A stretch of 64,000 nucleotides of DNA from Candidatus Lindowbacteria bacterium RIFCSPLOWO2_12_FULL_62_27 (GTDB lineage Bacteria; Lindowbacteria; 2-12-FULL-62-27): NCBI GenBank assembly GCA_001784175.1, contig MFPR01000001.1, forward strand, positions 124,001 to 188,000, written 5' to 3'. A program made the position numbers and the translations under genes. The notes under the pieces are model-generated. The model was not told where the DNA came from, did no database searches, and worked only from the letters and a program-made list of their open reading frames with translations. Positions within the stretch are counted from its first letter, which is position 1. Each line of letters begins with the position of its first letter. This document shows positions 14,579-36,440 of the stretch, in pieces.

Positions 14579-14606
14579 AGACGCTTCGCGTTCACGTGCC
14601 ATTCCC

Positions 14607-15860: not shown

Positions 15861-17013
15861 CCGGGCGGACTTTTCCACGGCGCGGCGGGTGGTCATCAAG
15901 GTCGGCACGTCGCTCCTGCGCGGCGCCGACCACGCCGTCGACAGGGGATTTCTGAAAAACATCGCCGCCCAGATCGCCGAGACTCGGAGCCTTCCGGATC
16001 GCCGGCAGATCATCCTCGTGTCCTCCGGCGCGGTCGGCTTCGGCATGATGCGCCTCGGCCTTTCCCGCCGCCCGGCCGATGTCGCGACCCTGCAGGCCGC
16101 CGCCGCCGTCGGCCAGCCTGAGCTGATGAAGGCGTGGGCCGACGCGTTCGCGCCGCACAGCGTCCGCGTCTCGCAGATCCTCCTCACCAACGACGGGCTC
16201 CAGGACCGGGCGCGGTTCGTCAATGCCAAGCACGCGATCCGACGCATCCTCGACCTCAATGTGGTTCCCGTCGTCAACGAAAATGACACCGTTGCCGTCG
16301 ACGAGCTGACCTTCGGAGACAACGACACGCTCTCGGCCCTGGTCGCCGCCATGGTCGACGCAGATCTCCTCATCAACCTCACCAACGTCGATGGATTCTT
16401 CGCGCCTTCCGACGGCGGCGGCCGGACGCTCCTGAAGACCGTCCCGGTCATCCGGCCCGAATGGATCACCGCCACCCAGGCCGGCGAGCGGAGCGAGCGC
16501 GGCAGAAGAGGCGGCTTTACGCTTGGCGGAATGTCCGCCAAATTGAAAGCCGCGCGCCTGGCGCTCCGCGCCGGCATCCCGGTCGTCATCGCCAATGGCC
16601 GGGAGAAAAAAATCCTCGCAGCGGTCCTTTCGGGCAGGCCCGCAGGGACGCTCTTCCTCCCGCAGGAACGCGGCTTGAAGGGCAAGAAAGTCTGGCTGTC
16701 GCTCTTCCGCGCGCCCGCCGGGACCATCGTGGTCGACCGCGGAGCGGCGGCGGCCGTCGGCAGAAACGGCAAGAGCCTTCTGGCCAGCGGGATTCTGCGT
16801 GCGACCGGGCAATTCTCCAGACAGGACTGTGTTTCGATCGTGTCCGAGGACGGCCGCGAAATCGCACGCGGCATCAGCGCCTATTCGTCCGGGGAAATCC
16901 AAACCATCGCCGGGTGTCCTTCAACGGACATCCGCAGGCGGCTCGGAATCGCGCCGGCCGACGCTGCGCCCGCCGAGGTCATCCACCGCGATAATATGGC
17001 GCTCCTGCCATGA
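15847..17013 (+). CDS. proB: glutamate 5-kinase
   Basis: 388 residues, starting at ATG 15847 inside the end of obgE. The kinase domain begins VVIKVGTSLLRG; further marks are SSGAVGFGM, NENDTVAVDELTFGDND, and NVDGFF. The C-terminal ~75 residues are a PUA domain (GTIVVDRGAAAAVGR). It phosphorylates glutamate in the first step of proline synthesis and usually feeds back on proline. proA follows directly. Confidence 0.95.
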   Translation: MKELDRADFSTARRVVIKVGTSLLRGADHAVDRGFLKNIAAQIAETRSLPDRRQIILVSSGAVGFGMMRLGLSRRPADVATLQAAAAVGQPELMKAWADAFAPHSVRVSQILLTNDGLQDRARFVNAKHAIRRILDLNVVPVVNENDTVAVDELTFGDNDTLSALVAAMVDADLLINLTNVDGFFAPSDGGGRTLLKTVPVIRPEWITATQAGERSERGRRGGFTLGGMSAKLKAARLALRAGIPVVIANGREKKILAAVLSGRPAGTLFLPQERGLKGKKVWLSLFRAPAGTIVVDRGAAAAVGRNGKSLLASGILRATGQFSRQDCVSIVSEDGREIARGISAYSSGEIQTIAGCPSTDIRRRLGIAPADAAPAEVIHRDNMALLP

Positions 17014-21875: not shown

Positions 21876-22550
21876 ATGTCAGTTCCCAAGCGTATTGATA
21901 TTTTTGCCGGACTCAAGGAAAAGGAATTGAAGAAAATCTACCAGCTCGCCATCGAGAAAAATGTCCGCAAGGGCGAGTATGTGTTTCTCCGGGGCACCTT
22001 CGGCAAGGTCCTCTATCTTATTATGGAGGGCCTGATCAAAATTGAGCAGCCGACCGAGCGCGGGAAGGTCAAGACGCTGTCGCTCCTTGGAGCCGGCGAA
22101 TGTTTTGGCGAAATGGCCATCATCACCAACCTGCCGCGCTCCGCCTCCGCGCTGGCCCTCGAGGACTCCACGCTCCTGATGCTGAAACGCGAGGCCTTCC
22201 TGTCGCACATCCAGAGCCATCCCGAGGTGTCGCTGAAGATCATCGAGGTCATGTGCCAGCGGCTGACCGACGCCAACGAACAGATCAAGTCCCTGAGCTA
22301 CGACAGCGTCGCCGCCCGGCTCGCCAACCATCTCGTGTCGCTGGCCGAGAAATTCGGGGAAACCGAGGGCAGCTCCTGGCACATCCGCATCCGCCTCACC
22401 CATCAGGAACTCGCCGACCTTTGCGGCAGCACCCGCGAAATCGTCACCCGCACGCTCAAGCTGTTCTCGGACGAGGGCAGCGTCGAAGTTGATGGAAACC
22501 GCAATCTCTGGATCCGCGATCCACAGAAACTTTCGCAGTGGATAAAGTAG
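21876..22550 (+). CDS. Crp/Fnr-family transcriptional regulator
   Basis: 224 residues. The cNMP-binding jelly roll spans ~10-125 (GECFGEMAIITNLPRSASAL, close to the cAMP pocket consensus GE.A...R.A). The C-terminal winged helix has LTHQELADLCGSTREIVTRT. No Fnr-type cysteine cluster is visible, so a nucleotide or other small ligand is more likely than an FeS cluster. Start ATG with GGGGAGG; monocistronic or followed by birA. Confidence 0.92.
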   Translation: MSVPKRIDIFAGLKEKELKKIYQLAIEKNVRKGEYVFLRGTFGKVLYLIMEGLIKIEQPTERGKVKTLSLLGAGECFGEMAIITNLPRSASALALEDSTLLMLKREAFLSHIQSHPEVSLKIIEVMCQRLTDANEQIKSLSYDSVAARLANHLVSLAEKFGETEGSSWHIRIRLTHQELADLCGSTREIVTRTLKLFSDEGSVEVDGNRNLWIRDPQKLSQWIK

Positions 22551-22551
22551 G

Positions 22552-23376
22552 ATAACGCGCTCCTCCTTACACAACCGCAATTTTAAAATCCAAACCGGCG
22601 TCAGGGCCGTCTATGAGTATTCCGCCCTGCCCTCAACAAACGATCGCGCCAAACTTCTCGCAGTTCAGGGCGCGCCGGACCGGTCCCTCGTCATCACCTC
22701 CCGGCAAACCGCAGGTCGGGGCAGGGGCGGCAACCGCTGGTGGTCCGGCCAAGGATCGCTGACCTTCTCAGTCATTTTCAGGGTGCCGCGCACGTCGATC
22801 GCACTGCAGAATCTCGCTCCGATTTCCCTCGTCGCCGGCCTGTCCGTTGTCCGGACCGTCCGGCGGATTCATCCGGCATGCCCGGTCGCCCTCAAGTGGC
22901 CCAACGACATTTATTCGGGGCCGAAAAAGCTCGGCGGCATCCTGACGGAGAGCAGCGTACGCGCCGGCCGGCCCGCCAACCTGATCGTGGGGGTGGGGCT
23001 GAACGTCAACACAAGGTTCGAGCGTGCGCCGGCGGCCATCCGATCCACTGCAACGTCTCTTTGCCAAGGCACGTCGCCAAGCCATCGCATGGACGAAGCC
23101 CGGGTTCTGGCGTCTGTCTTGAAGGAGCTGTGCAAACTGGTCCGCCAATTCCTCAGAAGCGGATTTCAGCCCCTTTGCGACGAATGGACTTCCTTCGACG
23201 CCGTCCCATTCGGAAGCAGAATCAGCGTCGACGACGGCAATATTAATATGGAAGGACGCTACGAAGGCATTCTTCCGACAGGTGCACTAAAATTGCGTGG
23301 AGAATCGGGCCTCCACACGATCCTCTCCGGCACGCTCCGTCCCGTGGGCGTACTTCCCATAACGCATAAAGTGTAA
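22552..23376 (+). CDS. birA: biotin--[acetyl-CoA-carboxylase] ligase BirA (short form)
   Basis: The catalytic signature RQTAGRGRGGNRW is followed by KWPNDIYSGPKKLGGIL and a C-terminal SH3-like domain. It joins biotin to the carboxyl-carrier protein. There is no N-terminal DNA-binding domain, so it is probably not a repressor. The frame is open from 22546 but holds no ATG, GTG or TTG before the conserved region; ATA 22552 is used as a boundary and the true start (possibly ATC 22588 or CTG 22627) is unresolved. The last two codons and the stop lie in the Xer site: KV-stop now, IM-stop in the uninterrupted chromosome. Confidence 0.85.
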   Translation: MTRSSLHNRNFKIQTGVRAVYEYSALPSTNDRAKLLAVQGAPDRSLVITSRQTAGRGRGGNRWWSGQGSLTFSVIFRVPRTSIALQNLAPISLVAGLSVVRTVRRIHPACPVALKWPNDIYSGPKKLGGILTESSVRAGRPANLIVGVGLNVNTRFERAPAAIRSTATSLCQGTSPSHRMDEARVLASVLKELCKLVRQFLRSGFQPLCDEWTSFDAVPFGSRISVDDGNINMEGRYEGILPTGALKLRGESGLHTILSGTLRPVGVLPITHKV

Positions 23377-24703
23377 ACTTGGTAGATGTATCTGATTGTA
23401 TACTGCTTTTTTCGTTACCTCCTCCCACTGTTGGGATAAGATTTTTTGGTCTGTACCGTTTGAAAACATCCATAACATAACGTTCGTCGGCCATGAGGGA
23501 CCAGGTGGAGTAATGGAGGCGGCCGGTCGGCATTTCCATGACGGGGATCCATTTCTGGGATACGGCCCAATCCAGGCGCTCCTCCGCCTCCGAAAGGTGC
23601 GTGGGCCGGCCGACGCGGCACATGTCGACGAGGTACTCCACGATCATGCGTTCACGCCAGGCGGTGGCGCAGCGATAGACGGCGCGTTCGGCAATCATCT
23701 GCCAGCGCCGGCAGGCGCCGAGTTCCCGGCGGTTGCATTCGAGTTCATGGCGGGCCTCCAGGCAGTCGCCGGCGTTGGCCTGGGCCCATTCGAGGAGGCG
23801 GGTCTTTGATTCGGCCTGGATGTCGTCGACCGACTTCGTCGGGATCCGTTCGAGACGCCGGCGCCAGTCGGCGAGGATGTCGGCTTTCGTTCTGGACGGA
23901 TCCTTGTCCCGGCGCGTGTTCATTTCGGCGGCCTTCGCGTTCGTAGTTGTGAGGAGGGCCTTCCGGATCTGCGCCTGGCGCGTCGAAAACTCCTCCTGGG
24001 CCTCGTGGGATACGAGGTCGGACCGCCACTGGCCATGGGGCATATAGGAGCGCTTGAGGTCGAAGCGGTGGAGGCGGGCGCGCAGTTCGTGCATGTAGAT
24101 TTGTGTCGCCAGATAGGGAAAGTCCCGGAAGTAAAATCGGGCGCCGTGGATGCCCGAAAAATGCGGCGCGCCATTTTTCTCCCACTGCGTGATGTTGAAC
24201 ACCAGCACATGGGAGGACAGGTGCGGATCATACTCGCGTGAGAAGCCGTCACGCAGGATCGAGTAGACCATGTTATCAGTCGATAGATCGACTTGAGTCT
24301 GGCCGCCCTTTCCCATCCTAGCACGAGAGTATCGTATCTCTATTTCCCGCATGGTCGCCAGGACCGCGTCATCATGCGCTGCCGTGATGTCGGCACGGGT
24401 CATATTGCGCGGTAGCTCAAAGCCGTCCATGAGCGCCAGCATGGAGATTGATTTGGGCGCGGAAAAGGCCCAGGAAAAGCAAAGTACCTTGTGTTTTTGC
24501 ACGATCTTTTTGCCGGCGGCGTCACAGCCTTTGAGCAGGTTCACCATGTCGTCCCGGCCAATGGGCTGCCCTTCCTCAAAGCCGAGGTAGGGCGCGGTTT
24601 TGCCGTAGACGCGGACTCCTACGGAGTCATCAGCCTGGTCAAAGTAGTAGTTTGTACTCTTGTCGTAGAAATAATCGGCGATGCCGACCGGGTCCTGTTT
24701 CAT
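23243..24703 (-). CDS. TrwC/TraI-type (MobF) relaxase, N-terminal half of a replicase split by integration
   Basis: As integrated, 486 residues; the last 41 codons (up to the stop at 23243) are the Xer core and host birA read antisense. The relaxase domain shows Tyr pairs ADYFYDKSTNYY (residues 9-20), FSAPKSISMLALM (80-92) and DPHLSSH (159-165), which align with the catalytic tyrosines, FSAPKS motif and HxH region of TraI. Two of the three metal-binding His appear replaced (R151 and S163), leaving H165. Start ATG 24703 with AGGGG upstream; TTG 24769 would add 22 residues. In the circular element this frame runs on into the helicase at 34379. Confidence 0.85.
   Translation of the reverse strand: MKQDPVGIADYFYDKSTNYYFDQADDSVGVRVYGKTAPYLGFEEGQPIGRDDMVNLLKGCDAAGKKIVQKHKVLCFSWAFSAPKSISMLALMDGFELPRNMTRADITAAHDDAVLATMREIEIRYSRARMGKGGQTQVDLSTDNMVYSILRDGFSREYDPHLSSHVLVFNITQWEKNGAPHFSGIHGARFYFRDFPYLATQIYMHELRARLHRFDLKRSYMPHGQWRSDLVSHEAQEEFSTRQAQIRKALLTTTNAKAAEMNTRRDKDPSRTKADILADWRRRLERIPTKSVDDIQAESKTRLLEWAQANAGDCLEARHELECNRRELGACRRWQMIAERAVYRCATAWRERMIVEYLVDMCRVGRPTHLSEAEERLDWAVSQKWIPVMEMPTGRLHYSTWSLMADERYVMDVFKRYRPKNLIPTVGGGNEKSSIQSDTSTKFTLYALWEVRPRDGACRRGSCGGPILHAILVHLSEECLRSVLPY
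23351..23379 (+). other. attL: Xer recombination site, left end of the integrated element
   Basis: XerC-type arm ACTTCCCATAA (23352-23362), centre CGCATA (23363-23368) and degenerate XerD-type arm AAGTGTAAACT (23369-23379). It shares 18 identical bases (23351-23368) plus TGTAAACT with the right copy at 34362-34390. The only differences within the site are the three bases 23369-23371. The arms resemble the dif arms of Bacillus. By the crossover model the XerC arm is host DNA and the XerD arm belongs to the element. Confidence 0.85.
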
Positions 24704-24893
24704 CGGGACGCCCCTAAACACGTCCCACCCCAACTTCGAATCGCGCGTTAGCTCCTTTCGGATCGACAAAAAAATCCAACCCGCCGGGCGGCGCCGCGCG
24801 CGGGCAGACCGGGGCCGAAGGGGTCAACCCCGGCGAAACGTTATCGGAATGCGATTGGATGCGCTCTGAATCCCCTTCTCTCATTACGCGGAG

Positions 24894-24923
24894 TGTCTAC
24901 CAGTGATTAAAACAAAATGTCAA
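24894..24923 (-). promoter_or_regulatory. putative promoter for the relaxase gene
   Basis: On the minus strand TTGACA (24923-24918), 18 bp spacer, TAGACA (24899-24894). It would yield a ~185 nt leader to ATG 24703 that contains GC-rich inverted repeats (for example GGGGTCAACCCC around 24820). A replicative origin or nick site might lie in this leader; no such site is recognised. Confidence 0.45.
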
Positions 24924-24979
24924 TAGCCGGCGTGAAAATTGTTTCCATGTGCGGCGCCGTCGAATCCGCGGGACAGCGC

Positions 24980-25008
24980 TTGATTTTCCGGTATACCGCC
25001 GGTATACT
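24980..25008 (+). promoter_or_regulatory. promoter and operator of the VapBC-like pair
   Basis: TTGATT (24980-24985), 17 bp, TATACT (25003-25008). The spacer and -10 carry CCGGTATAC twice (24988-24996 and 24999-25007), also readable as GTATACC-GCC-GGTATAC dyad. A repeat over the promoter is typical of antitoxin autorepression; the binding protein is inferred to be the antitoxin. Confidence 0.7.
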
Positions 25009-25030
25009 GTCCCTCGAGGAGGTGATCGAC

Positions 25031-25261
25031 ATGAAAAAACAGTCGCTCAACGCCACGTTCACGCTGAAAGTGACGCAGGAAATGAAAAAAGAGCTGGACA
25101 AACTCGGCGCGGACATGCAGAGATCAGCGCTTGAGGAAATGCTCAACGACAAGATCAGGGACAAGTTGATGCGGCGCCTGGACCGGATGAATCGAGGCAT
25201 GAAGCCTCTGGGCGGCCGACCCGTCGGCGAGATCCTTCGGAGGATGCGGGACGGTGGATAG
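25031..25261 (+). CDS. antitoxin-like protein (VapB type), element-borne
   Basis: 76 residues. The N-terminus (NATFTLKVTQEMKKELDKLG) looks like a ribbon-helix-helix antitoxin and the C-terminal half is basic and probably unfolded until bound to toxin. Start ATG 25031 after GAGGAGGTGATC. It overlaps the PIN gene by 8 bp. Only this pair lies on the + strand of the element. Confidence 0.7.
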   Translation: MKKQSLNATFTLKVTQEMKKELDKLGADMQRSALEEMLNDKIRDKLMRRLDRMNRGMKPLGGRPVGEILRRMRDGG

Positions 25262-25670
25262 ACTGGTGATGGACGCGAGCGCATGGATCGAGGTCATTTT
25301 GGCGCAGCCACACGCAAAGCTGGTCCGTCCATATATCCATCGCGCGGAATGGTTGGCGCCGTCATGGATCCGGATCGAAGCCGCAAACGTCATCCTGCTC
25401 AAGGCCCGTGAAATGAAACGGCCGGAAATATTGAATCGACTTCAAGATGTCATGAGATTTCCGTTTTACAAAGTTCCGCGGGGCGTATGGTGGCGGGACG
25501 CAATAGAGATGGGGACGCGGCACAGGATCACATTCTATGATGCGGTCTATCTTTCCATCGCGAGGAAATTCAGTCTTGCGCTTCTGACGCTGGACAATCT
25601 TATGAATCGAGCAAGAGAAATCGAGCGCATACCGGCCGTCATCGAGACCATCCAAAAACCGAGAAAATAG
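25254..25670 (+). CDS. PIN-domain toxin (VapC type), element-borne
   Basis: 138 residues. PIN acidic residues are visible: D in VMDASAWIEV, E in RIEAANVILL, D in TFYDAVYLSIA and D in LLTLDNL. VapC toxins are RNases that cut tRNA or rRNA. Start GTG 25254 overlaps the antitoxin stop. Such pairs on prophages stabilise the element or block other phages; here that is inference. Confidence 0.85.
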   Translation: MDRLVMDASAWIEVILAQPHAKLVRPYIHRAEWLAPSWIRIEAANVILLKAREMKRPEILNRLQDVMRFPFYKVPRGVWWRDAIEMGTRHRITFYDAVYLSIARKFSLALLTLDNLMNRAREIERIPAVIETIQKPRK

Positions 25671-25681
25671 CGGCGTACAAA

Positions 25682-25703
25682 CCCGTATCCTCGCGGATAC
25701 GGG
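25682..25703. terminator. hairpin between convergent toxin and phage operon
   Basis: CCCGTATCC, loop TCGC, GGATACGGG: a perfect 9-bp stem in the 55 bp between the convergent ends of vapC and the structural operon. T tracts are weak on both sides, so termination strength is uncertain. Confidence 0.5.
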
Positions 25704-25725
25704 ACGGGGGGGAAATATGGTCGGA

Positions 25726-25899
25726 TTAGTTGACGGGTTCGACGTCGGACGACACGTCCATGGCCGGCGTCAGTTCAATCGTCCGTTTGACGCCGAATCC
25801 GACGTCGGCCGTGAGGGTGTCGGGGACGAAGCGCCGGGGGCGCAGGAGCAGCCAGGCGAGAAGGAGCGCAAGGAGGATCCACAAAAGATTACGGTTCAT
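25726..25899 (-). CDS. small membrane protein, last gene of the phage operon
   Basis: 57 residues. N-terminal membrane segment (NLLWILLALLLAWLLL), then Arg-rich RPRR and a short tail. The ATG overlaps the upstream stop (TGATG). Unrecognised; a virion membrane or lysis protein is possible. Confidence 0.6.
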   Translation of the reverse strand: MNRNLLWILLALLLAWLLLRPRRFVPDTLTADVGFGVKRTIELTPAMDVSSDVEPVN

Positions 25900-26141
25900 C
25901 ACGGCGCGGGCGGCGGATAGAGGACCGGATCCGTCGCGCGGGCCCGGGCGCCGGCGGCGTCGAGGATCGTGCAGACGGCGCAGCCGGCGAGCTTGTGGGC
26001 GAGGAGGCGCGGAAATTCCAGCGACATAATCACCGTGCCGTCGGTCGCGGTCGGTTTTTGCGCCAGACAAAAGGCGTCGACCTTCACGTCATTTTCGAAG
26101 TGCGTTCGCGCGGCGTAGACGTAGTTGGTTGCCATGGTCAA
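25899..26141 (-). CDS. small phage protein of unknown function
   Basis: 80 residues (or 78 from the second Met). Soluble-looking, with an Ala-rich centre (LLAHKLAGCAVCTILDAAGA) and Pro tail. Overlaps both neighbours by 1-4 bp, which supports a real coupled gene. No family recognised. Confidence 0.55.
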   Translation of the reverse strand: MTMATNYVYAARTHFENDVKVDAFCLAQKPTATDGTVIMSLEFPRLLAHKLAGCAVCTILDAAGARARATDPVLYPPPAP

Positions 26142-26914
26142 TGGATGTCGTTTATGAATGGATTGCCGGTGAAATTGAATGTGTTGGCAGTGCCGTTCAC
26201 GATTTCGTTGATGGGTTGATTTCCGCTGAGATTGATGTCGTCATTGAAGCGGCAATTGAAAAGGAGCCCCATTTCCGGCGATGTCAGTTCAGAAAGCATG
26301 TCGCCCTGAAGTTGTGCAATTGTTCTTGCATGGTTGTACAGACGGACATCATCCATGAGTCCGTTAAAAAAATGGCTGTTGCCGTAAACCGAACCGACCC
26401 GCCAATTCCATCCGATGTTTCCGGGCAGACTGTTCCCGTGCGAACCACTAAACACGGCGTTGAAATAAAATGAAACATTACCCGCCGCCCTTACCTGGCT
26501 TACGTATGTCCAGATATTGAGCGGCACGACGCCGCTCGATTTCAGGCCCGTCAAGTTGTCGTTGAGAAATCTGTTTTGGTCGATCAACAATCCCACAAAA
26601 CTTGACGATCCGCCGTCGACGGATGTGACCGTATAATTCGCGCCGGCAGGCGGCGGCGTAATAATTTTGATCCATCCCGAAATTGTATAATCATTCAAAG
26701 TCGCCGCAAGCGTAAACGGCGACTGGACAAACGAATCGACGCCGTCAAACATGAGGGACTTGTTTAATTGCGTCTCCAGTTTAAGTACAAGCTCATCATT
26801 GACAAATTTAAATTGCTGGTTGCTGACTTCGGATATGAATTTATGACGGAAGGCCGTGCGGCGGTTGCCGAGTTCATCGACAAGAGTCGGCGGCGGGTTG
26901 ATGATCTGGCCCAT
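26138..26914 (-). CDS. LamG/concanavalin-like protein, candidate spike or receptor-binding protein
   Basis: 258 residues from ATG 26914 (TAATG overlap with the previous gene). Residues ~55-230 form a LamG/ConA-like fold: SLMFDGVDSFVQSPF, NDYTISGWIKI, and FFNGLMDDVRLYNHARTIAQ. Such domains bind glycans. The locus is more AT-rich than its neighbours, as often seen for variable host-recognition genes. A vertex spike role is inferred from family and position near the lysis gene. Confidence 0.7.
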   Translation of the reverse strand: MGQIINPPPTLVDELGNRRTAFRHKFISEVSNQQFKFVNDELVLKLETQLNKSLMFDGVDSFVQSPFTLAATLNDYTISGWIKIITPPPAGANYTVTSVDGGSSSFVGLLIDQNRFLNDNLTGLKSSGVVPLNIWTYVSQVRAAGNVSFYFNAVFSGSHGNSLPGNIGWNWRVGSVYGNSHFFNGLMDDVRLYNHARTIAQLQGDMLSELTSPEMGLLFNCRFNDDINLSGNQPINEIVNGTANTFNFTGNPFINDIH

Positions 26915-27114
26915 TACTTCTCCCGTCCCTGGGCCAGGCTGATCGTGAGGAGAAGATCGTTCGCGTGTTTGATCTCCTTTTCGAGTTCGGCGATTTTCTC
27001 GTTGAATCTGAATTCCATCTTTTGCAGCCGCGTGTAAAAGTAGAATCCCAGCGCGACGACGGCCGGGGAGGACTGCGCGGCCTGGATGAGAAAGCGTACC
27101 AGCGCCTCCTCCAT
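26914..27114 (-). CDS. small membrane protein with coiled coil (holin-like candidate)
   Basis: 66 residues. One membrane segment (SSPAVVALGFYFYT) is followed by a charged heptad region (MEFRFNEKIAELEKEIKHAN). It starts on the stop of the transglycosylase gene (TAATG). A small membrane protein next to a lysozyme gene suggests a holin, but topology alone cannot show this. Confidence 0.6.
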   Translation of the reverse strand: MEEALVRFLIQAAQSSPAVVALGFYFYTRLQKMEFRFNEKIAELEKEIKHANDLLLTISLAQGREK

Positions 27115-27722
27115 TATGCCGCCACCTTCCGGTAAAATTCCATGACGCGGTCCACGTACTTCTGATTGACATAGGTATTTTCGACGTAGTTCGGATGCGA
27201 AGCCGCCGGCCGGCCCTGCCAGGTGTCGGAGAAGAATTTGCCGTCGTCGGCGTGGACGACGCGGCCGCCGGCGAATTTCAGGGCGCTGCCGGCATTGTAA
27301 GACGCGGCGACATGTTCCGTCACGCCCTTGTAGCGCCGGGTCTGCCGGCCGATGTAGAGGCCGGCCAGGTCGGCGGATACGGACGGATCGAAAAGATCGT
27401 CGAGCTTGACCGAAGGGCGCAATTCCTCGGCCGTGGTGTTGAGCATCTGAAAGAGTCCCGCGGAAGCCACGCGCCGGCCGGCCCGGGCCGTCAGGTTCTT
27501 TTCCTCAAGGACCGCCGCCGGATCGCCGGAGGACTCGACCTTGAGAATGGAGAGCATGAGGGCCGGATCCACGCCGTGTTTGTCGGCCGCAAGCTCGACC
27601 AGGGGGATCCATCGGTCGATGTTCACAAAGCCGGAGGGTTTCACGCGGGTCACAGACGGCCGCCTAGAGCGGGTGGCAACAATCCAGATAAAAACGGCGG
27701 CGAGCGCGAGAGGGATATACAC
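27114..27722 (-). CDS. membrane-anchored lytic transglycosylase (SLT family)
   Basis: 202 residues. N-terminal membrane anchor (IPLALAAVFIWIVAT), then an SLT domain with the catalytic Glu in ILKVESSGDP, AGLFQMLNTTAEEL and VAASYNAGSAL. It cuts peptidoglycan. Tailless phages such as PRD1 carry a virion transglycosylase for entry as well as lysis enzymes; which role applies is not known here. Confidence 0.85.
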   Translation of the reverse strand: MYIPLALAAVFIWIVATRSRRPSVTRVKPSGFVNIDRWIPLVELAADKHGVDPALMLSILKVESSGDPAAVLEEKNLTARAGRRVASAGLFQMLNTTAEELRPSVKLDDLFDPSVSADLAGLYIGRQTRRYKGVTEHVAASYNAGSALKFAGGRVVHADDGKFFSDTWQGRPAASHPNYVENTYVNQKYVDRVMEFYRKVAA

Positions 27723-27737
27723 GGCGGCGCCGGCGGC

Positions 27738-28286
27738 TCATTCGTTGACTTCCAGGACGGCGACAGTCTGGGCGGCGGCGCCGGGGTTGAACACATAGAC
27801 GGCCGCCGTGGTCGTCAGGGACACGGCGCCGGCCGGGGGGAGGGGATAGCCCCGGCCGGTGGCCGCCGCCGAATCGCCGACCCGGAGGGTTTCAACGTTC
27901 GTGTCGAGGCTTGCGACGATGATTTCTTTTCGGGTCGCGTTAACGGCCTTCACGAGCACGGTTGCGCCGGCCGGCAGGGACACGTCCGTGGACGACACGA
28001 GCGTCTGACCGCTCGTCACCGTCACGTCTCCGGTCAGGACGAACCGGGTAAAGTCGCCGAATCCGGCCGTCACGGTGATCTGCACGTCGGCGCCGGTGGG
28101 GTTGGTGATGCGGAAACTTTCGTAGGGCCGTTCGGACCGGCGGGCGTCGCCCTCCTTCATGTCGGTGATGTCGCCGTTGATTTCGACGTTGACGATCGCC
28201 GTCGATGCCTTCATGTGGATGAAATCGCCGGTCACGGCAAAGTCACTGCCGGCGCCGGCCGCAATCGTTCTCGTAAAGTCTTTCAT
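27738..28286 (-). CDS. putative phage structural protein (beta-rich)
   Basis: 182 residues, rich in Thr/Val/Ala and predicted beta strands (for example FRITNPTGADVQITVTAGFG and TVTSGQTLVSSTDVSLPAG). Together with its 88-residue neighbour it looks like minor capsid or penton-type jelly-roll proteins. No family recognised from sequence alone. Confidence 0.65.
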   Translation of the reverse strand: MKDFTRTIAAGAGSDFAVTGDFIHMKASTAIVNVEINGDITDMKEGDARRSERPYESFRITNPTGADVQITVTAGFGDFTRFVLTGDVTVTSGQTLVSSTDVSLPAGATVLVKAVNATRKEIIVASLDTNVETLRVGDSAAATGRGYPLPPAGAVSLTTTAAVYVFNPGAAAQTVAVLEVNE

Positions 28287-28287
28287 C

Positions 28288-28554
28288 CTAGATGGCCTTC
28301 AAAGTCCGGATCAGTCGGCCGGATCCGGCCGTAAAGACGGCGGTGACGGATTGGGCGTTGTTGTTGATGACCTTAAACTGGAAAAAGACGCGGTTGTCGA
28401 AAATGAGGGCGTCGCCGGGTTGCATTTCGACCTGATCCTGGTCGATTTCGACGACGAGGTTTTTGTTGGCGCTTTTCAGGAAAATAAAATCGCCCTGCCG
28501 GATCACGTCCTGATTTGCGTTGGCGAGGATCGTCACGGAGATGTCACGGAGCAT
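28288..28554 (-). CDS. small beta-rich phage structural protein
   Basis: 88 residues, alternating hydrophobic/polar strands (ISVTILANANQDVIRQGDFI, NLVVEIDQDQVEMQPGDAL). Size and pattern suit a small jelly roll such as a penton. Only 1 bp separates it from the next gene. Function is a guess. Confidence 0.6.
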   Translation of the reverse strand: MLRDISVTILANANQDVIRQGDFIFLKSANKNLVVEIDQDQVEMQPGDALIFDNRVFFQFKVINNNAQSVTAVFTAGSGRLIRTLKAI

Positions 28555-29016
28555 TTAGGCGCGCCTCGTTGCAAAATAGGCGCCGCCGAGGAGCACGAGT
28601 CCCACGATCACAAACTTGGAGATGTTTTCAAATGTTTTGGTCGTCTCCTGGCGCGTGGCCTCGGCGATTTGCGCTTGGGTTTCAAGACTCGCTTTCTGGA
28701 TTTGCTGCACAAGTTTTTCCTCTCCGGTGCGGACGTTTTCGAGAAAGCCGAGGGATTTTCCGAAGATGTCGCCGCCAAGATCGAGCACGTCGCCGGTACC
28801 CTTCGCCACCACGTCCAGGGACCGCAAACTAATGTCCCTGGCGGCGGCCACGGATTGAGGGTCCGTGATCGTGACGGGTCCGTCGACGCTTGCGACGGTG
28901 ACGCCCTCGGTTTCCATGACGGATACCGGCTTTGAGACGGTGACAGTCTCCTGCTGGGTCGTGGTGACGGCGCTCGATTTGGAGTCCTCACCGAAAATCT
29001 TTGAAAGAAGTCCCAT
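28555..29016 (-). CDS. phage membrane protein with C-terminal anchor
   Basis: 153 residues from ATG 29016. N-terminus MGLLSKIFGEDSKSS, a long polar/helical middle (residues ~60-120), and a C-terminal membrane segment (FVIVGLVLLGGAYFATRRA). Possibly a virion internal-membrane protein. Confidence 0.6.
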   Translation of the reverse strand: MGLLSKIFGEDSKSSAVTTTQQETVTVSKPVSVMETEGVTVASVDGPVTITDPQSVAAARDISLRSLDVVAKGTGDVLDLGGDIFGKSLGFLENVRTGEEKLVQQIQKASLETQAQIAEATRQETTKTFENISKFVIVGLVLLGGAYFATRRA

Positions 29017-29017
29017 G

Positions 29018-29233
29018 TCAGGCGTTCCGAAACGCGAGGAAAAGCGCGAAGGCGGCCAGACCCAGAAGAAGGAGGACCGCCGTCCGGTCGCGGCCGGCGA
29101 CGTTAAAGTCTCCGAAGTCAATCGTCACGGGACCGCCTCGGGCTTCGCCGGATCGGGTGGTGAGAGCGGCGTTCACGCCGGCTTCGGGGTTGAGTTCGCC
29201 GGCCGCAAGGGCGGCGATTTCGCTGAACGGCAC
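29018..29233 (-). CDS. small phage membrane protein
   Basis: 71 residues from GTG 29233. Acidic/polar N-terminal half and a C-terminal membrane segment (TAVLLLLGLAAFALFLAF). It lies tightly between two other small membrane proteins. Confidence 0.55.
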   Translation of the reverse strand: MPFSEIAALAAGELNPEAGVNAALTTRSGEARGGPVTIDFGDFNVAGRDRTAVLLLLGLAAFALFLAFRNA

Positions 29234-29235
29234 CG

Positions 29236-29373
29236 TCAGCGCCTCGGCAAAAAAACGGTCAGATAGACGACGCCTCCGAGGATAAGGAGCAGGGAAAAGA
29301 CGTTTCGGGAGGTGCGGCTTATGCCGAGCGTCGCCAGAATGCCGGTTCCAAGGCCCAGAAGAAGAAGCGGCAT
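29236..29373 (-). CDS. very small two-span phage membrane protein
   Basis: 45 residues: MPLLLLGLGTGILATLGI, a short basic loop (SRTSRN), then VFSLLLILGGVVYLTVFL and a basic end. The frame exactly fills the gap between neighbours (stop 2 bp before the next start), which supports a real gene despite its size. Confidence 0.55.
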   Translation of the reverse strand: MPLLLLGLGTGILATLGISRTSRNVFSLLLILGGVVYLTVFLPRR

Positions 29374-29374
29374 G

Positions 29375-29662
29375 TCAATTCGACGCCGCCACAAACGCAA
29401 GAAGGGCCAGGCCTACAACGATCACGAGCATCCCGAGGCCCTGGTTGTTCGCGGCCGGGGATGCGGCGGTTTGCGCGGGTTTGGCGGAGGAAGCGCCGGG
29501 CGGGGCCGGCGGCGTTCGTTCGGGGAAAACGTCGGGCGCCGTCGGCCCGCCGCCGTTAAAAATGACCGGCTCGTCCAGTTCCGGCGGCAGTCCCTTCAGG
29601 AAAATGTCCAGGGCCGCGCGGGCGCCGGTTCGGAGGGCCTCGTCCAGGTTCGGGGTCGCCAT
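29375..29662 (-). CDS. small phage protein with C-terminal membrane anchor
   Basis: 95 residues. Amphipathic N-terminus (DEALRTGARAALDIFLKGLP), a Pro/Ala-rich middle and a C-terminal membrane segment (LGMLVIVVGLALLAFVAASN). Directly downstream of the capsid gene. Confidence 0.6.
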   Translation of the reverse strand: MATPNLDEALRTGARAALDIFLKGLPPELDEPVIFNGGGPTAPDVFPERTPPAPPGASSAKPAQTAASPAANNQGLGMLVIVVGLALLAFVAASN

Positions 29663-29672
29663 GAGGCGCCGC

Positions 29673-30491
29673 CTAGACCGACTGGATCCGGTTGAGGTAC
29701 TCGACGACGACGGGGATCGCGCCGGGGGCCGACAGGGTCAGGATGAAGCGCAGGTCGTTGACCTGTTCCGTCGCCAGGGCGTCGGCGCCGTTGCCGTCCT
29801 CGGTCGTGTCGTAGACGAATACGCCCGTCTGCGGCACGCGCACGCCGTCGGACTGGACCCGGTTGTTTTCGGCGACCAGCCGCTCAAAGACCGTGAAGTT
29901 GTCGCGCTTCACTTCGAGCTTGGTGATGGCCGAACTCAAAAACAGGATCTTGTTGACGAGCGGTCCGCGGGGCAGGTCGGAAATCTCAAAGGTCCCGCTG
30001 CCGGCGGCCGTATAGGAAAAGTTCCGGATGTCCCGGATGATGCCCGACGGCCGGGGCGCCGACTGGATGGCCTTCGCCGAGAGCGTGGGAACGGAGACGC
30101 CGGCCGTAATGTCGATTTCGAGGGCCAGGGTCGTGATCTTCGCCTGGTCGTTCGGGTCGCCCGTACCGAGGGACGTCAGCTCCTCGGCCGCGCGGGTGCG
30201 AAGTCCGAAGCGGTCGAAGTCGACGATCAGGATATTGTCGGCGGTCGCGGAGGCGCGGCCCTCGTATTTCATGATCGTGTCCAGTTGCGTGCCGGAGGTG
30301 AATCGCTGAATGGCCTTGCCGTTGGCGACGATGCGAAGTTCCGTCATCTGCGCCGGCGTCAGATTGCCGTAAGAAACCAGGACCTGGTGATAGGTGCTGC
30401 CGATGGGAAGCCGGAGGGTGGCAGTTCCGGTCTGGTTGGCGCCGGGGATGCCCTCAAAATTCGGCAGGACCTTTGTATTTTTCAATCCCAT
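29673..30491 (-). CDS. candidate major capsid protein, double-jelly-roll type (PM2 P2-like)
   Basis: 272 residues, close to the ~270 of PM2 P2. Features reminiscent of this capsid group: LRLPIGSTYHQVLVSYGNLT, LRIVANGKAIQRFTSGTQLD with a following Tyr, then FSYTAAGSGTFEISDLPRGP followed by VNKILFLSSAITKLEVKRDN, and a C-terminal LRFILTLSAPGAIPVVVEYL. It is the largest structural gene and lies two genes after the packaging ATPase. Two jelly rolls cannot be proven from sequence by eye; a structural prediction would decide. Confidence 0.7.
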   Translation of the reverse strand: MGLKNTKVLPNFEGIPGANQTGTATLRLPIGSTYHQVLVSYGNLTPAQMTELRIVANGKAIQRFTSGTQLDTIMKYEGRASATADNILIVDFDRFGLRTRAAEELTSLGTGDPNDQAKITTLALEIDITAGVSVPTLSAKAIQSAPRPSGIIRDIRNFSYTAAGSGTFEISDLPRGPLVNKILFLSSAITKLEVKRDNFTVFERLVAENNRVQSDGVRVPQTGVFVYDTTEDGNGADALATEQVNDLRFILTLSAPGAIPVVVEYLNRIQSV

Positions 30492-30518
30492 GTCGATGTG
30501 CTCGCTTTCTGTCGTTTC

Positions 30519-30617
30519 TCAGGCGTTGACGATGTCTTTCAGCGCCTGCACGCGGTTGACGACTGCCATCGTCACCACGACGAGGATCACTGTCCACACA
30601 ATCATTCTCGGGGTCAT
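30519..30617 (-). CDS. tiny single-span membrane protein upstream of the capsid gene
   Basis: 32 residues: MTPRMIVWTVILVVVTMAVV then NRVQALKDIVNA. An excellent ribosome-binding site (AAGGAGGACAAACAG) stands before the ATG, and a consensus promoter lies just upstream, so it is likely translated. Probably a virion membrane protein. Confidence 0.6.
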   Translation of the reverse strand: MTPRMIVWTVILVVVTMAVVNRVQALKDIVNA

Positions 30618-30645
30618 CTGTTTGTCCTCCTTAAAATGCAATACA

Positions 30646-30695
30646 GTTGCAAATGCAACATGACCGCATTATACCGAAGGCGGGCCGCCTGTCAA
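30646..30695 (-). promoter_or_regulatory. consensus late promoter with operator
   Basis: On the minus strand TTGACA (30695-30690), 16 bp, TATAAT (30673-30668): both hexamers match the sigma-70 consensus. Just downstream lies GTTGCA-AA-TGCAAC (30646-30659 on +), and AAATGCAA occurs twice 17 bp apart (30634-30641, 30651-30658). The dyad sits at about +2 to +15 of the expected transcript, a good place for a repressor. It would drive the 32-residue gene and the capsid operon. Confidence 0.75.
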
Positions 30696-30881
30696 GTCCT
30701 TTTTTGTCATGACCGTCACGACGATCCGGGCGGTACTTTTCAGTTCGGCCACAAGATCGAGAAACTCGCAGGGCGTCACACGCCGGCCGTCGACATGGAT
30801 TTCAGCCAGGTCGGGGTCGATCTTCTCGACATAGAGTCGAAGGACGGGCTTCCAGGAATGATAAAGCGACAGAACATCCAT
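30669..30881 (-). CDS. small phage protein of unknown function
   Basis: 70 residues, soluble, mixed alpha/beta (VLRLYVEKIDPDLAEIHVDG). The downstream promoter overlaps its 3' end. Unrecognised. Confidence 0.5.
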   Translation of the reverse strand: MDVLSLYHSWKPVLRLYVEKIDPDLAEIHVDGRRVTPCEFLDLVAELKSTARIVVTVMTKKDLTGGPPSV

Positions 30882-30887
30882 GAGCGG

Positions 30888-31502
30888 CTAATTGGGCGGC
30901 GCGGCCGCGCGGCGGACGGAATCGCCGGGGCGCCAGTCGGCGGGCAGAATGTGGGCGGCGCCGGTTTCGCCGTGGTAGACGATGCATTCATGTTCGTCGA
31001 GACAATCCGCCATGGTTTCGTAATTCGGGATCATCCTGGCGCAGTAGTCCCGGTCGCGCGGTTCGGAGAAGCGGAAGCAGTAGAGGTCGTTGTTCGCGGT
31101 GAGTTCCCGCGGCACTTCCGCGGGACGCTGGGAGGTGGCGAGAAGTTCCACGCCAAAATGCCGGTCCCGCCGGCAGAGGGTGGCGAAAAAGACGGACCGG
31201 ACCGTAGGCGATACAAAGTCGGCGACCTCCTCCACGTGCAGCCGGGGGACGCGAAGCCGAAGGACAATCTCGCAAATGGTGTCAAATTCGTCGCGGTCGC
31301 AAAAGGGCGGCACGTAGGCGATATGTTGCGAGAGCGGTCGCTTGAGCCAATCGAATAAAATGCGGTGAGAATCGGTCTTTCGTCTAACGCGATGTTCCCC
31401 GTTCGGGTCGATGATGAGGGTGGGACCCGAGACGGCGAGAAATTTTTTTGCAAGCGTGGTTTTTCCGGAGAGCTTGCGGCCGAGGATGACGCGGGTGGGC
31501 AT
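30888..31502 (-). CDS. packaging ATPase of the A32/FtsK-HerA type
   Basis: 204 residues. Walker A GRKLSGKTTLAKKF (residues 8-21), IDPNGEH, Walker B-like RLHVEEVADF, and LLATSQRPAEVPRELTANND, the sensor/arginine region typical of FtsK-HerA packaging ATPases (PRD1 P9, PM2 P9, poxvirus A32). These translocate DNA into preformed tailless capsids. It is close to the capsid gene, as in other members. Confidence 0.85.
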   Translation of the reverse strand: MPTRVILGRKLSGKTTLAKKFLAVSGPTLIIDPNGEHRVRRKTDSHRILFDWLKRPLSQHIAYVPPFCDRDEFDTICEIVLRLRVPRLHVEEVADFVSPTVRSVFFATLCRRDRHFGVELLATSQRPAEVPRELTANNDLYCFRFSEPRDRDYCARMIPNYETMADCLDEHECIVYHGETGAAHILPADWRPGDSVRRAAAPPN

Positions 31503-32057
31503 TTATGCATGAAGGGGCGCCGACGCCGGCGGCGCGGCCGGAGGCGGCGGCGCGGCGCCGGCCGCTTTCCACCGGCGATAGAGGACGACCTTGTCGGCGG
31601 CGATGTCGAGGATCGTCATGAGGGCCACCGTCTCCGCCATGTATTTGAAAATCGGATGATCTCGGTTCTTGAGGTAGAGCGGATAGATCGCCTCCTGGAC
31701 GGACTTTCTCTGTCCGTCGGTCAGACTGACGGCGTCGCAGCCGGTGGCGGTGGCGCACATGCCGAACAAGCCTCCGACGATATGGCCGAGGACCACAGGC
31801 TCAAGAACGGCAGCAGGAGGGGCCGCCGGCGGACTCTGCGGCCTGGGGGCCTCCGAGTCCGCCGGCTCCTTGTCCGGCGCGCGGCGGCAGCCGAGCTTTT
31901 GGTGGACTTTCAGGCCCTGGTCGGTCTTGCAGATTTTCCCGCACGCCGGACACTCATGGCGGCGGGCGGCCAGCTCGCGGGCGGCGGCGTCGACGATTGC
32001 GGCGCGGTCCGGTGGGTCCGGCGCCGGAGGCGCCGTCACAGCAGCGGTCGGTCCCAC
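31503..32057 (-). CDS. phage protein with C2H2-like zinc finger and hydrophobic C-terminal half
   Basis: 184 residues. Residues ~35-57 hold C-x2-C ... H-x4-C (CPACGKICKTDQGLKVHQKLG then C). A Pro/Ala linker follows, then segments that could cross or lie on the membrane (VVLGHIVGGLFGMCATATG; ETVALMTILDIAADKVVLY). The stop abuts the ATPase start. Function unknown. Confidence 0.65.
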   Translation of the reverse strand: MGPTAAVTAPPAPDPPDRAAIVDAAARELAARRHECPACGKICKTDQGLKVHQKLGCRRAPDKEPADSEAPRPQSPPAAPPAAVLEPVVLGHIVGGLFGMCATATGCDAVSLTDGQRKSVQEAIYPLYLKNRDHPIFKYMAETVALMTILDIAADKVVLYRRWKAAGAAPPPPAAPPASAPLHA

Positions 32058-32284
32058 CAGGATTTTTCCTCCGCCGGTTTTTCTTCCGTCCTGGGTATTG
32101 ACTCGCCCGCCGTTCGTTCGTCCTGCGCAATCACAGGCGCGGAATTCGGGTCGTCTACGGCGCCGGCGCCGTTTTCATGCGCCGAAGCGTCCACAGGCGG
32201 AGGCGCCGGCGGCTCGTCTGGGGCCGGCGCCGGCGCCGGCGGCGGAGTTTCACAAATATTGCAGACCTTTTCCGGGTCGGTCAC
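32036..32284 (-). CDS. Pro/Ala-rich small phage protein
   Basis: 82 residues with CNIC near the N-terminus, a Pro/Ala-rich middle and acidic tail (SWWDRPLL end). It overlaps the next gene by 22 bp. Low-complexity content limits interpretation. Confidence 0.45.
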   Translation of the reverse strand: MTDPEKVCNICETPPPAPAPAPDEPPAPPPVDASAHENGAGAVDDPNSAPVIAQDERTAGESIPRTEEKPAEEKSWWDRPLL

Positions 32285-32484
32285 GGCACACGCGCGACCG
32301 CCGAGTCCGGCGGCGCGGCCGGCGCTGACGTCGCGGTTCCGTCCGCCGAGTCCGGCGGCGCGGCCGGCGGCGTCGGCGCGGATCCGGCCGCCGGGTCCGG
32401 CGGCGCGGCCGGCGCCGCCGGCGCGGATCCGGTCGCCGGGTCCGGATGACGCTTGTCCTTATTCGTTCCTCTTCGTCCACTCAT
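32281..32484 (-). CDS. Pro/Ala repeat phage protein
   Basis: 67 residues from ATG 32484 with GGAGGAG upstream. Basic N-terminus (SGRRGTNKDKRHPDP), then repeats of GSAPAAPAAPPDP type. The underlying DNA (about 32295-32440) is a tandem-like GC repeat, CCGCCGxGTCCGGCGGCG units, prone to length change. Confidence 0.5.
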   Translation of the reverse strand: MSGRRGTNKDKRHPDPATGSAPAAPAAPPDPAAGSAPTPPAAPPDSADGTATSAPAAPPDSAVARVP

Positions 32485-32519
32485 GAGGCACTCCTCCACA
32501 AATCTCCCGAGGGGAGTTT

Positions 32520-32759
32520 TCATCGAAGCACAATCAACGTTGTGCTTATAAAATCTATCTTCCATCCTCGCGCGCGGTATCGGCGGCGCAGCTCCCGTTG
32601 CGTATCGGCCGATGTACACCGTGAGAGCCGTATTGTGAGGGCGTCGCCGTTCCAAAATCTTGTGATCATCGGATCAATCTCACGCTCATAAACGTTGGCC
32701 TCCATCGTTGTGCCGTCATCACAGAACGGCCGCAAGGCTTGAGCATGACTGATTGCCAA
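32520..32759 (-). CDS. small phage protein of unknown function
   Basis: 79 residues, basic C-terminal half (DTQRELRRRYRARGWKIDFI). It starts 3 bp after the next upstream stop. Unrecognised; possible regulator. Confidence 0.5.
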   Translation of the reverse strand: MAISHAQALRPFCDDGTTMEANVYEREIDPMITRFWNGDALTIRLSRCTSADTQRELRRRYRARGWKIDFISTTLIVLR

Positions 32760-32761
32760 AG

Positions 32762-32974
32762 TTATCGAACCTCCGCCGAACCTTGCGGCAATCGTTTCAT
32801 AACCTTGTCCAGGGCGGCCCGAAGGTAGAACAACCCTCCGGCAACGATCAAACCCTTGGCATTCAACGCGGCGCCCGCAAAGTCTCCCATAGAAAGCGGA
32901 CTGATGACCGGCGGGGCGCTGACGATGGCCAAGAGGCCCGCAAACAGTTTCGTTCTGAATCCTGAAAGGTTCAT
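32762..32974 (-). CDS. small phage membrane protein downstream of the helicase
   Basis: 70 residues from ATG 32974 with GAGGAGGTC upstream. Hydrophobic segments LFAGLLAIVSAPPVI and LIVAGGLFYLRAAL. First gene after the replicase stop (17 bp). Confidence 0.55.
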   Translation of the reverse strand: MNLSGFRTKLFAGLLAIVSAPPVISPLSMGDFAGAALNAKGLIVAGGLFYLRAALDKVMKRLPQGSAEVR

Positions 32975-32990
32975 GACGTTTGACCTCCTC

Positions 32991-34379
32991 TCATGCGATG
33001 TTTGAAACCATTGATCTATGGTTCGGAAAGGGTTTGCAACCCTTCTCAAATGGTTCTTCAAACGATTCGAGCAACTCGGAATGAACGGTTTGTCGAATCG
33101 TTTCGCGGCGCGCCAGGCACTCCTCCAGCGTCACGTCCGGCCAGCCCCAGGAAAGGGTCGTTTCGGCGTGCTGTCCGAGCCTGGCGAGAAAGAGCAGGTT
33201 TTCCCAATCGTCGGTGAAGATGAGACAGAAGTCCCGGGCGCGCGTGATCTGAACGTACTGGGCCCGCATGGTCTCAAGGTCCTTGCGGGTCGTGTCGGCG
33301 TCGATCAGGACCGTTCCGACGGTCCGGCCCTGGGCCTTCCAGGTTGTGACGGCGTAGCCATGGTCGAACCACGGATAAAGCGCCGGATTGATTTCGACGG
33401 TCCGGCCGCCGTCGAGCCGGACGGTGAAACGGTCCCGGCCGATATCGGCCACCGTTCCGGTGAAGCCGTTTCGGAGATTCAGGCGGCCGTAGAGGTTCTT
33501 CGTGCAGACGATGCGGTCGCCCGGCAAAATCTCCACGTCGAATTCGGAGCGCTTGCGCCTCGCGCGAAACTTCACGGCCGCGCGGCGCAGACGCAGGGGG
33601 AAAAGCTTTTCGCGGATCCGGCGGTTGATCTCCATGCACGAAAGGGCCGAAGGAGAAATGACAAGCATCCCGGGCCGAAAGAGGCGCGCGATTTCGGCCC
33701 ACCGTTCCTCCGGCGGCCCGATCTCGCGGACCCAGCCGAGGTCCCGAAGCGCGCCCAAAGACGCCGGCATGTTTCGCGCGCGGGCCAGGTCGCAGGCGTG
33801 ACGCAGACCTGAATGACGCTGTCTGAAATTTTCGTGCAGTTCCACAAGGACGCCGGCGCCGCGCGCGAAGTCGCAAAGGTTCGTGAAGGGATCGCCGGCC
33901 GTCAGGGGCGTCAGCTGCGAGGGATCGCCGATCAACAGGAGATTCATGCCGAGCCGTTCGCATACCCGGGTCAGGCGCGCCATGTCGGTTATGCCGATCA
34001 TCGAGCTTTCATCGACGACGATGAGCATGGAATCGGCGGACCGGCGGCGCTTGATGCCCTCGTAATAGGCGAGGAAAGCGGCGAGCGTCACGGCGGGGAT
34101 GCGGCTTTCCTCGTGCAGGTTGGCCGCCGCGGCGCCGGTGGGCGCCACGCCGCGGATCTTCCATCCCCGCGGTAGAAGTATCTGACGCAACACGTCGACC
34201 AGATACGTCTTTCCGGAGCCGGCGTCTCCACGCCAGCACATGAAAGTTTCGTTCTGCGCCGTCAGCGATTGAACGGTATAGATAAGGGCTTTTTTCTGGT
34301 CCCCTGTAAGATTATGTAGACTTTCCTCAAGCTCCAATCCCGCAAGGAGCTTGCGGAACGCTACTTCCCATAACGCATA
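32991..34379 (-). CDS. TraI/RecD-type SF1 helicase, C-terminal half of the split replicase
   Basis: 462 codons read from the Xer core. SF1 motifs: GDAGSGKT (Walker A), VVDESSMI (II), GDPSQLTPL (III), ENFRQ (IV-like), TWKAQGRTVGTVLIDA (V) and VQITRARD (VI). In the integrated state an in-frame TAA from the host XerD arm (34382-34380) stands just before the core, and the first usable start is TTG 34337, without a good ribosome-binding site. In the circular element the frame is fed by the relaxase ORF (23369 joins 34379). It would unwind DNA during rolling-circle type replication. Confidence 0.85.
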   Translation of the reverse strand, partial: YALWEVAFRKLLAGLELEESLHNLTGDQKKALIYTVQSLTAQNETFMCWRGDAGSGKTYLVDVLRQILLPRGWKIRGVAPTGAAAANLHEESRIPAVTLAAFLAYYEGIKRRRSADSMLIVVDESSMIGITDMARLTRVCERLGMNLLLIGDPSQLTPLTAGDPFTNLCDFARGAGVLVELHENFRQRHSGLRHACDLARARNMPASLGALRDLGWVREIGPPEERWAEIARLFRPGMLVISPSALSCMEINRRIREKLFPLRLRRAAVKFRARRKRSEFDVEILPGDRIVCTKNLYGRLNLRNGFTGTVADIGRDRFTVRLDGGRTVEINPALYPWFDHGYAVTTWKAQGRTVGTVLIDADTTRKDLETMRAQYVQITRARDFCLIFTDDWENLLFLARLGQHAETTLSWGWPDVTLEECLARRETIRQTVHSELLESFEEPFEKGCKPFPNHRSMVSNIA

Positions 34380-34390
34380 TTATGTAAACT
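34362..34390 (+). other. attR: intact dif-like Xer site at the right end of the element
   Basis: ACTTCCCATAA (34363-34373), CGCATA, TTATGTAAACT (34380-34390): a 28-bp site with the two 11-bp arms and 6-bp centre of a dif site, very near the Bacillus dif arms. It is intact on both sides, so chromosome dimer resolution should still work. Left of the element host genes run on +, right of it mostly on -, as expected around the terminus. Confidence 0.85.
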
Positions 34391-34408: not shown

Positions 34409-35390
34409 TTACGCCCACCGCGAGGAAAACCAGCACGCCGAACAATGGCTCGGCGCGAACGCCTCGATCGGCGGCTCAGCCTCAGCGCACTTCAGCTCAG
34501 CATGGAGGCAACGCGTGTGGAACCGGCAGCCGGAGGGGGGGTCGGCCGGCGAGGGGATCGAGCCTTTGAGAACAATCCTCTCTTTTCGGGCCGCCGGGTC
34601 CATCGACGGGATGGCCGATATGAGCGCCCGCGTGTATGGATGCAGGGGCCGTGCATAGAGACGGCTGCGGTCTGCCAGCTCCATGATTTTCCCCAAATAC
34701 AGGACCGCCACCCTGTCCGAGATGTGCTGAACGACCGACAGGTCGTGCGAGATAAACACCATGGTCAATCCGAACTTGCGCCGCAGGTCCGTCAGAAGAT
34801 TCAGGATTTGCGCCTGGATCGACACGTCCAGCGCCGATACCGGCTCGTCGGCGATGACCAGGTCCGGCCGGACGATGAGCGCCCGCGCGATGGCGATCCT
34901 CTGGCGCTGGCCGCCTGAAAACTCGTGGGGGAACCGCGCCATGTGTTCGGCCGCAAGACCGACCTGCTCGAGCATGCCGGCCACGCGGCGCGCGCGTTCG
35001 GCGCGCGGGAGAGACTCGTGGATTCGCAGCGGCTCCGACAGAATGTCGTAGACCGTCATTCGCGGATTGAGGGACGAGTAGGGATCCTGAAAAATGATCT
35101 GGACCCTCGACCGGAACGGCCGAAAGGCGCGGCGCGAGAGGCCGGTGAGTTCCGCGCCGTTGAACCGGATGGACCCGGCCGACGGCCGGGCCAGGCCGAC
35201 GATCGCGCGCCCCAGGGTCGATTTTCCGCTCCCGGATTCTCCCACCAGCCCGAGAACCTCCCCCCGCCGGACGGATAGACTCACACCGTCGAGCGCCTTC
35301 ACCACGCCGATCAGTTTGGGGCGCAGCATTCCTTTCAATAATGGAAAATGGACTTTGAGGTCCTGGATTTCGAGCAACGCCGCTTCCGCT

Positions 35391-35404
<14 letters not shown>
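34409..35404 (-). CDS. oppF: oligopeptide ABC transporter ATP-binding protein OppF
   Basis: 331 residues from ATG 35404. Walker A GLVGESGSGKSTLGRAI, Q-loop FQDPYSSLNPR, signature EFSGGQRQRIAIARAL, Walker B DLVIADEPVSALD, H-loop FISHDLSVV, and the oligopeptide/dipeptide C-terminal motif with PPSGCRFHTRC. It powers peptide import with OppD. It overlaps oppD by 14 bp. Confidence 0.95.

Positions 35405-36440
<1,036 letters not shown>

Follow-up and report, generated by a model that had tools for sequence, protein, structure and literature searches.

Insertion of tailless double-jelly-roll (DJR) viruses at the chromosomal dif site has been described before. The NO16-like phages (proposed Asemoviridae) are integrated tailless DJR viruses whose attachment sites resemble dif, and for them use of the host XerCD has been proposed (PMC9966536), and dif insertion of a tailless phage has likewise been proposed for Jorvik (PMC10589892). 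Among related viruses, the Autolykiviridae (Vibrio phages 1.020.O and 1.249.A, and also D526) are lytic and have linear genomes with a type B DNA polymerase and a terminal protein, and PM2 (Corticoviridae) replicates via its P12 initiation protein, without MobF. Replicases described for Vinavirales include PolB, Rep_trans, HUH, DnaD-like and other types (PMC9502842, PMC5894146), and MobF does not appear among the types that the survey text considered here names for tailless DJR phages (PMC9502842). Proteins of the MobF kind (TraI, TrwC, TraA) belong to conjugation systems, in which a relaxase with a canonical HUH triad is followed by an SF1 helicase, and their genes are not interrupted by a recombination site. 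The Xer-using filamentous phages provide a model for reversible recombination with dif by a double-stranded circular genome (PMC4246890); in one filamentous phage, XacF1, attP lies in a phage coding frame that is split by XerC/D insertion at dif (PMC5666396). Mycobacteriophage BPs and its relatives show integration-dependent immunity involving the attachment site (PMC4557955).

In this study, we analyzed a 64,000-nucleotide stretch of a Candidatus Lindowbacteria genome (hereafter the window), in which an initial annotation had proposed a tailless DJR phage with a conjugation-type replicase. The locus very probably represents a circular, approximately 11,011-bp, tailless, membrane-containing virus of the PM2/autolykivirus kind (Vinavirales), integrated at dif by XerC/XerD, with its attP within a 929-aa MobF-type replicase gene.

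Results

A provirus at the host dif site

The provirus measures 11,011 bp (about 23363-34379) and is inserted at the host dif, with dif-like sites at both ends (Table 1). An 18-bp direct repeat joins positions 23351 and 34362, each copy being part of a dif-like 28-mer; the output of a general direct-repeat finder consisted mostly of GC-rich low-complexity runs. The left site has three mismatches to a perfect dif, and the right site is the sole perfect dif in the 4.39-Mb assembly, with 0 exact dif expected in shuffled sequence. The reconstructed attP junction contains AGTTTACACTTTATGCG, and the XerD-side arm of attP and attL is degenerate. In each of two other genera of the family dif is singular, and in a sister genus (G002) it is empty, lying between birA and the opp ATPase gene, with a CRP-type gene beyond birA. 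Because the same neighbors (matches between window and G002 with E of 8e-74, 1e-168 and 2e-124) surround this empty dif, the provirus can be delimited to 11,011 bp and sited at dif. The interval originally assigned to the phage, 25726-32974, is thus too short, leaving both replicase halves outside, and the integrated state and dif location had not been part of that description. Integration alters only the last two BirA residues (IM to KV; 23352-23376), and the birA stop codon, which falls in the dif site, survives.

Profile scans of the element proteins, with some very small frames left out, gave no match to an integrase. Integration at dif, a dif-like attP and no integrase of its own among the scanned proteins place the element among the Xer-exploiting integrative elements (IMEX), and we infer from the sequence that host XerC/XerD would have carried out the integration. 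The host encodes a XerD homologue scoring over the curated cut-off; a second XerC/XerD-type recombinase gene (G000:C1:192513-193391) is found about 34 kb from dif. GC skew shows no sign change at the site within about 60 kb, and thus gives no support for a terminus here.

Table 1. Features of the provirus and its flanks, by position in the window
Feature	Position	Strand	Evidence or remark
Host birA, left flank	22549..23376	+	TIGR00121, 152 bits
Replicase N-terminal half, MobF/TrwC relaxase domain	23243..24769	-	PF08751 7.1e-41, 141 bits; NF041492 MobF 119 bits (cut-off 100); TraI/TrwC structures
Left dif-like site (attL)	23352..23379	+	Host XerC arm ACTTCCCATAA + CGCATA (23363-23368) + phage XerD-side arm AAGTGTAAACT
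VapBC-like pair: ribbon-helix-helix antitoxin (24917-25261), PIN toxin (25254-25670)	24917..25670	+	PF01850 4.5e-8; RHH_1 0.0017 (below cut-off)
LamG/concanavalin-like protein	26138..27172, likely start about 26914	-	PF13385 6.2e-15
SLT transglycosylase (cell-wall hydrolase)	27114..27722	-	PF01464 3.8e-15
Conserved structural protein	27738..28286	-	Common to autolykiviruses and NO16: L006 3e-17, L015 8e-16, NO16 2e-7
Probable virion protein, C-terminal hydrophobic end	28555..29121	-	Weak match to D526 gene at same position, 2e-4
Two tiny membrane proteins	29236-29400, 29018-29233	-	KD 2.34 and 2.24
Membrane protein after capsid gene, P3 position	29375..29662	-	C-terminal hydrophobic segment, KD 2.68; position
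Major capsid protein, PM2 P2-type double jelly roll, 272 aa	29673..30491	-	Pfam, PHROG, predicted structure
Short membrane protein, P7-like	30519..30641	-	Upstream of capsid gene; hydrophobic segment
Perfect sigma-70 promoter TTGACA-16-TATAAT	30668..30695	-	12/12 matches, before capsid operon; consensus only
Packaging ATPase (P9/A32-like), 204 aa	30888..31502	-	phrog_2666 5.6e-17; matches to NO16, L016, L018, L019 ATPases
Possible orf-h-like protein with C2H2-like zinc motif	31503..32057	-	Directly upstream of ATPase
Replicase C-terminal half, TraA/RecD-like SF1 helicase	32991..34379	-	AAA_30 2.2e-38; TIGR02768 TraA positions 373-717 of 751, 3.4e-49
Right site (attR)	34363..34390	+	Complete host dif ACTTCCCATAA-CGCATA-TTATGTAAACT, regenerated at junction
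Host oligopeptide ABC ATPase gene (opp/dpp), right flank	34409..35419	-	Profile match; syntenic in sister genome G002

Virion genes of a PM2-like virus

Each gene of the initial annotation was found where it had been placed, on the minus strand, and its assignment to a tailless DJR virus is borne out by the capsid protein. This protein matches P2_C (E 1.3e-35) and P2_N (E 7.6e-26), both far over the Pfam cut-off, as well as phrog_8536 'major head protein' (3.7e-33). The predicted structure (mean pLDDT 86) has the expected two-jelly-roll fold, matching PM2 P2 closely (Foldseek E 4.6e-24, TM 0.87; VIA Z 32.6, rmsd 1.7 over 258 residues), with the capsid proteins of STIV, PR772/PRD1 and PBCV-1 as the next-ranked folds. 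In the capsid tree the protein forms a deep separate branch near two autolykivirus clades, without starred support.

The ATPase, which might have proved to be a conjugation coupling protein, is by its sequence matches of the tailless-phage packaging type (phrog_2666 and NO16-type matches) and not TraD-like. An FtsK/A32-like packaging ATPase close to the capsid gene is in keeping with Vinavirales. The protein encoded directly upstream is possibly orf-h-like, judging from a position like that of PM2 gp h and a weak zinc-finger match. Tiny membrane proteins had also been predicted, and strongly hydrophobic segments are present in each of the small membrane-protein frames of Table 1; the frame before the capsid gene weakly matches ORFs at the equivalent place in L007 and L018. 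The predicted transglycosylase has a clear SLT domain. The LamG protein exists and is possibly a receptor-binding or fiber protein, but its claimed membership of the core gene set is not established. Inside the provirus, the VapBC-like pair lies on the opposite strand and adjoins the relaxase gene; it may stabilize the lysogen.

A replicase gene split by integration

The domains of the proposed MobF relaxase-helicase replicase are real, but only circularization unites them in a single gene, which is split in the window. The relaxase (23243-24769) is found at the left end of the provirus and the helicase (32991-34337) at the right end, both on the minus strand. When the ends are joined across the shared CGCATA, a single uninterrupted ORF of 929 aa results, with relaxase then helicase on the same strand and in phase, and only in this joined form is the helicase domain fused behind the relaxase. 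Since one frame stays open across the joined ends, attP lies inside the replicase gene, namely in the interdomain linker of the relaxase-helicase, a region in which the viral protein exceeds its homologues in length. In the replicase frame, the reverse-complemented host dif reads FT*YALWE and attP reads FTLYALWE; the two 28-mers differ in only three bases, which are exactly the stop codon (TAA in dif, CTT in attP). This exact avoidance of a stop codon is the clearest indication that selection keeps the joined frame open when the genome is circular. After integration, the relaxase frame reads past the site for about 35 foreign residues and then stops, and the helicase half is immediately preceded by in-frame TAG and TAA codons (host dif arm and flank). 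For this half a TTG is available as start, and it lies downstream of the co-oriented opp operon.

Relative to TraI, the relaxase carries Asp where the first metal-ligand His would stand (as in the homologues L056 and L057), and its second metal-ligand position is occupied by Ser, an additional His being found two residues before it; the third metal-ligand His is kept, and a Tyr is present at the TrwC-like catalytic position. These departures from the HUH triad mean that nicking activity is not assured, and because two of the three metal-ligand positions differ, the term replicase denotes a presumed role.

The initial annotation had set MobF apart from the replication systems of PM2 and PRD1. 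The relaxase query matched none of 50,697 phage records, and relaxase scans of IMG/VR gave no match. Capsid scans of IMG/VR (single sequence and alignment) returned only Vinavirales without MobF. No close relative of the provirus was found in IMG/VR or the GTDB species genomes, and no DJR virus with a relaxase or MobF in the open-access literature. The MobF relaxase-helicase genes L056 and L057 (genomes G381 and G117, of another lineage) are located at contig ends, and RDGF replaces the first metal-ligand His; they possibly represent a distinct MobF subfamily. These close homologues do not adjoin capsid genes.

Comparison with known viruses

The closest capsids are those of Autolykiviridae (41-42% identity), with which the element also has a structural protein and the gene order ATPase - small membrane proteins - capsid - small membrane proteins in common. 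In contrast to these lytic viruses, the element is integrated at dif and has a MobF replicase, and no PolB was found in it, a linear genome with terminal repeats and a protein-primed PolB being the mark of that family. The likeness to PM2 extends from the capsid fold to the ATPase gene just upstream of the capsid gene and the small membrane proteins downstream, whereas the replicase is of TrwC/TraA type and not the PM2-type P12 initiator typical of Corticoviridae. Capsids of NO16 and of L016, a Vinavirales dif provirus from IMG/VR, are only 32-35% identical to that of the element, and their replicases are of other types; the attachment-type site of L016 lies outside its replicase. Dif-like sites occur in L016 at 1683 and 11914, and the lysin- and holin-like genes that follow at 14103-16770 are possibly part of another element in tandem.

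A P2_C family search of 290 genomes yielded only one other provirus (in G284), with a tyrosine-recombinase-like gene nearby and no dif-like site. A GTDB scan revealed a PM2/autolykivirus-type provirus in a Pseudomonadales MAG (L020; cut by a contig end), with a capsid 38% identical and its right end at a dif-like site around 7303; another match of the scan, L021, lies in an ABC transporter and was rejected as false. The host phylum is represented by three genomes in the comparison collection.

Discussion

Capsid, ATPase, attachment sites, the empty site of the sister genus and the continuity of the replicase frame are the parts of our explanation that are read from sequence. By analogy with filamentous phages, a circular double-stranded genome whose XerC arm is intact and whose central region is identical would recombine reversibly with dif. 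The intact MobF protein would start rolling-circle-type replication, by nicking and unwinding, and integration would cut the gene, leaving a relaxase that lacks the helicase domain, and a helicase fragment preceded by two in-frame stop codons. As insertion would disconnect nicking from unwinding, no full replicase would be made from the chromosome. Xer excision would rejoin the gene and restore the full enzyme; insertion and replication would be mutually exclusive at the DNA level, and a perfect dif would be left behind for chromosome dimer resolution. Some helicase could still be made through read-through from the opp operon and initiation at the TTG, and therefore the 'off' state may be leaky. 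Host Xer recombinases would in this way act as a lysis-lysogeny switch that cuts and rejoins the replicase where nickase meets helicase, and the off-state stop would come from the host dif; to this proposal we give an even chance.

It is unlikely that the element is instead a decayed provirus, with a replicase that was once intact, now fixed as a relic in which the split has no regulatory meaning. The atypical HUH triad and degenerate XerD-side arm would fit such decay, as would the failure of the IMG/VR scans to find relatives as free viruses, yet all core frames of the provirus are intact, the capsid model is confident, and the rejoined frame is not only open across the junction but avoids the dif stop codon exactly.

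The split might also stabilize lysogeny by other means, the truncated relaxase serving as a repressor or competitor at the viral origin. In the provirus the truncated relaxase retains its N-terminal domain, along with the region upstream of its gene, and mycobacteriophage BPs and XacF1 are precedents for a regulator at attP that is affected by integration (PMC4557955, PMC5666396); we give this role a low probability.

Very improbable is a coincidental in-frame meeting of two independent viral genes at the junction. Relaxase and helicase are separate ORFs in the window, a TTG can start the helicase half, and two ORFs would be joined in phase by chance in one case out of three. However, the two ORFs have the order, strand and phase of a single gene, they match complementary parts of the profiles (the N-terminal half of TrwC versus TraA positions 373-717), the differences between attP and dif coincide with the stop codon, and L056 and L057 are single proteins with continuous frames through both domains, to which the joined protein is 29% identical over residues 26-777. 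Lastly, although MobF relaxases are typical of conjugative plasmids and the relaxase query matched at least 5,000 plasmid records, a conjugative or mobilizable element with captured capsid genes, using its relaxase for transfer and not replication, is likewise very improbable, given a packaging-type ATPase, the capsid, membrane proteins and lytic transglycosylase; profile scans recognized neither a coupling protein nor any type IV secretion gene within the 11 kb.

Returning to the proposed switch formed by a split replicase, what is new here, in one genome, is the MobF replicase type in a DJR virus and the attP within it. We regard this as a new variant of dif insertion by tailless phages, because the relaxase matches no phage record, the L016 site lies outside the replicase, and XacF1, although likewise split in a coding frame, is an inovirus in which a putative regulator is split, and not the replicase of a DJR virus. 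With its deep capsid branch near the autolykiviruses, again from one genome, the virus possibly represents a new family. Tailless DJR phages often swap replication genes, and this find adds to their range a bacterial phylum that is sparsely sampled. For the host, active replication at the terminus would presumably be harmful, and an attP inside the replicase would be a simple, repressor-free way to keep the provirus from replicating in the chromosome.
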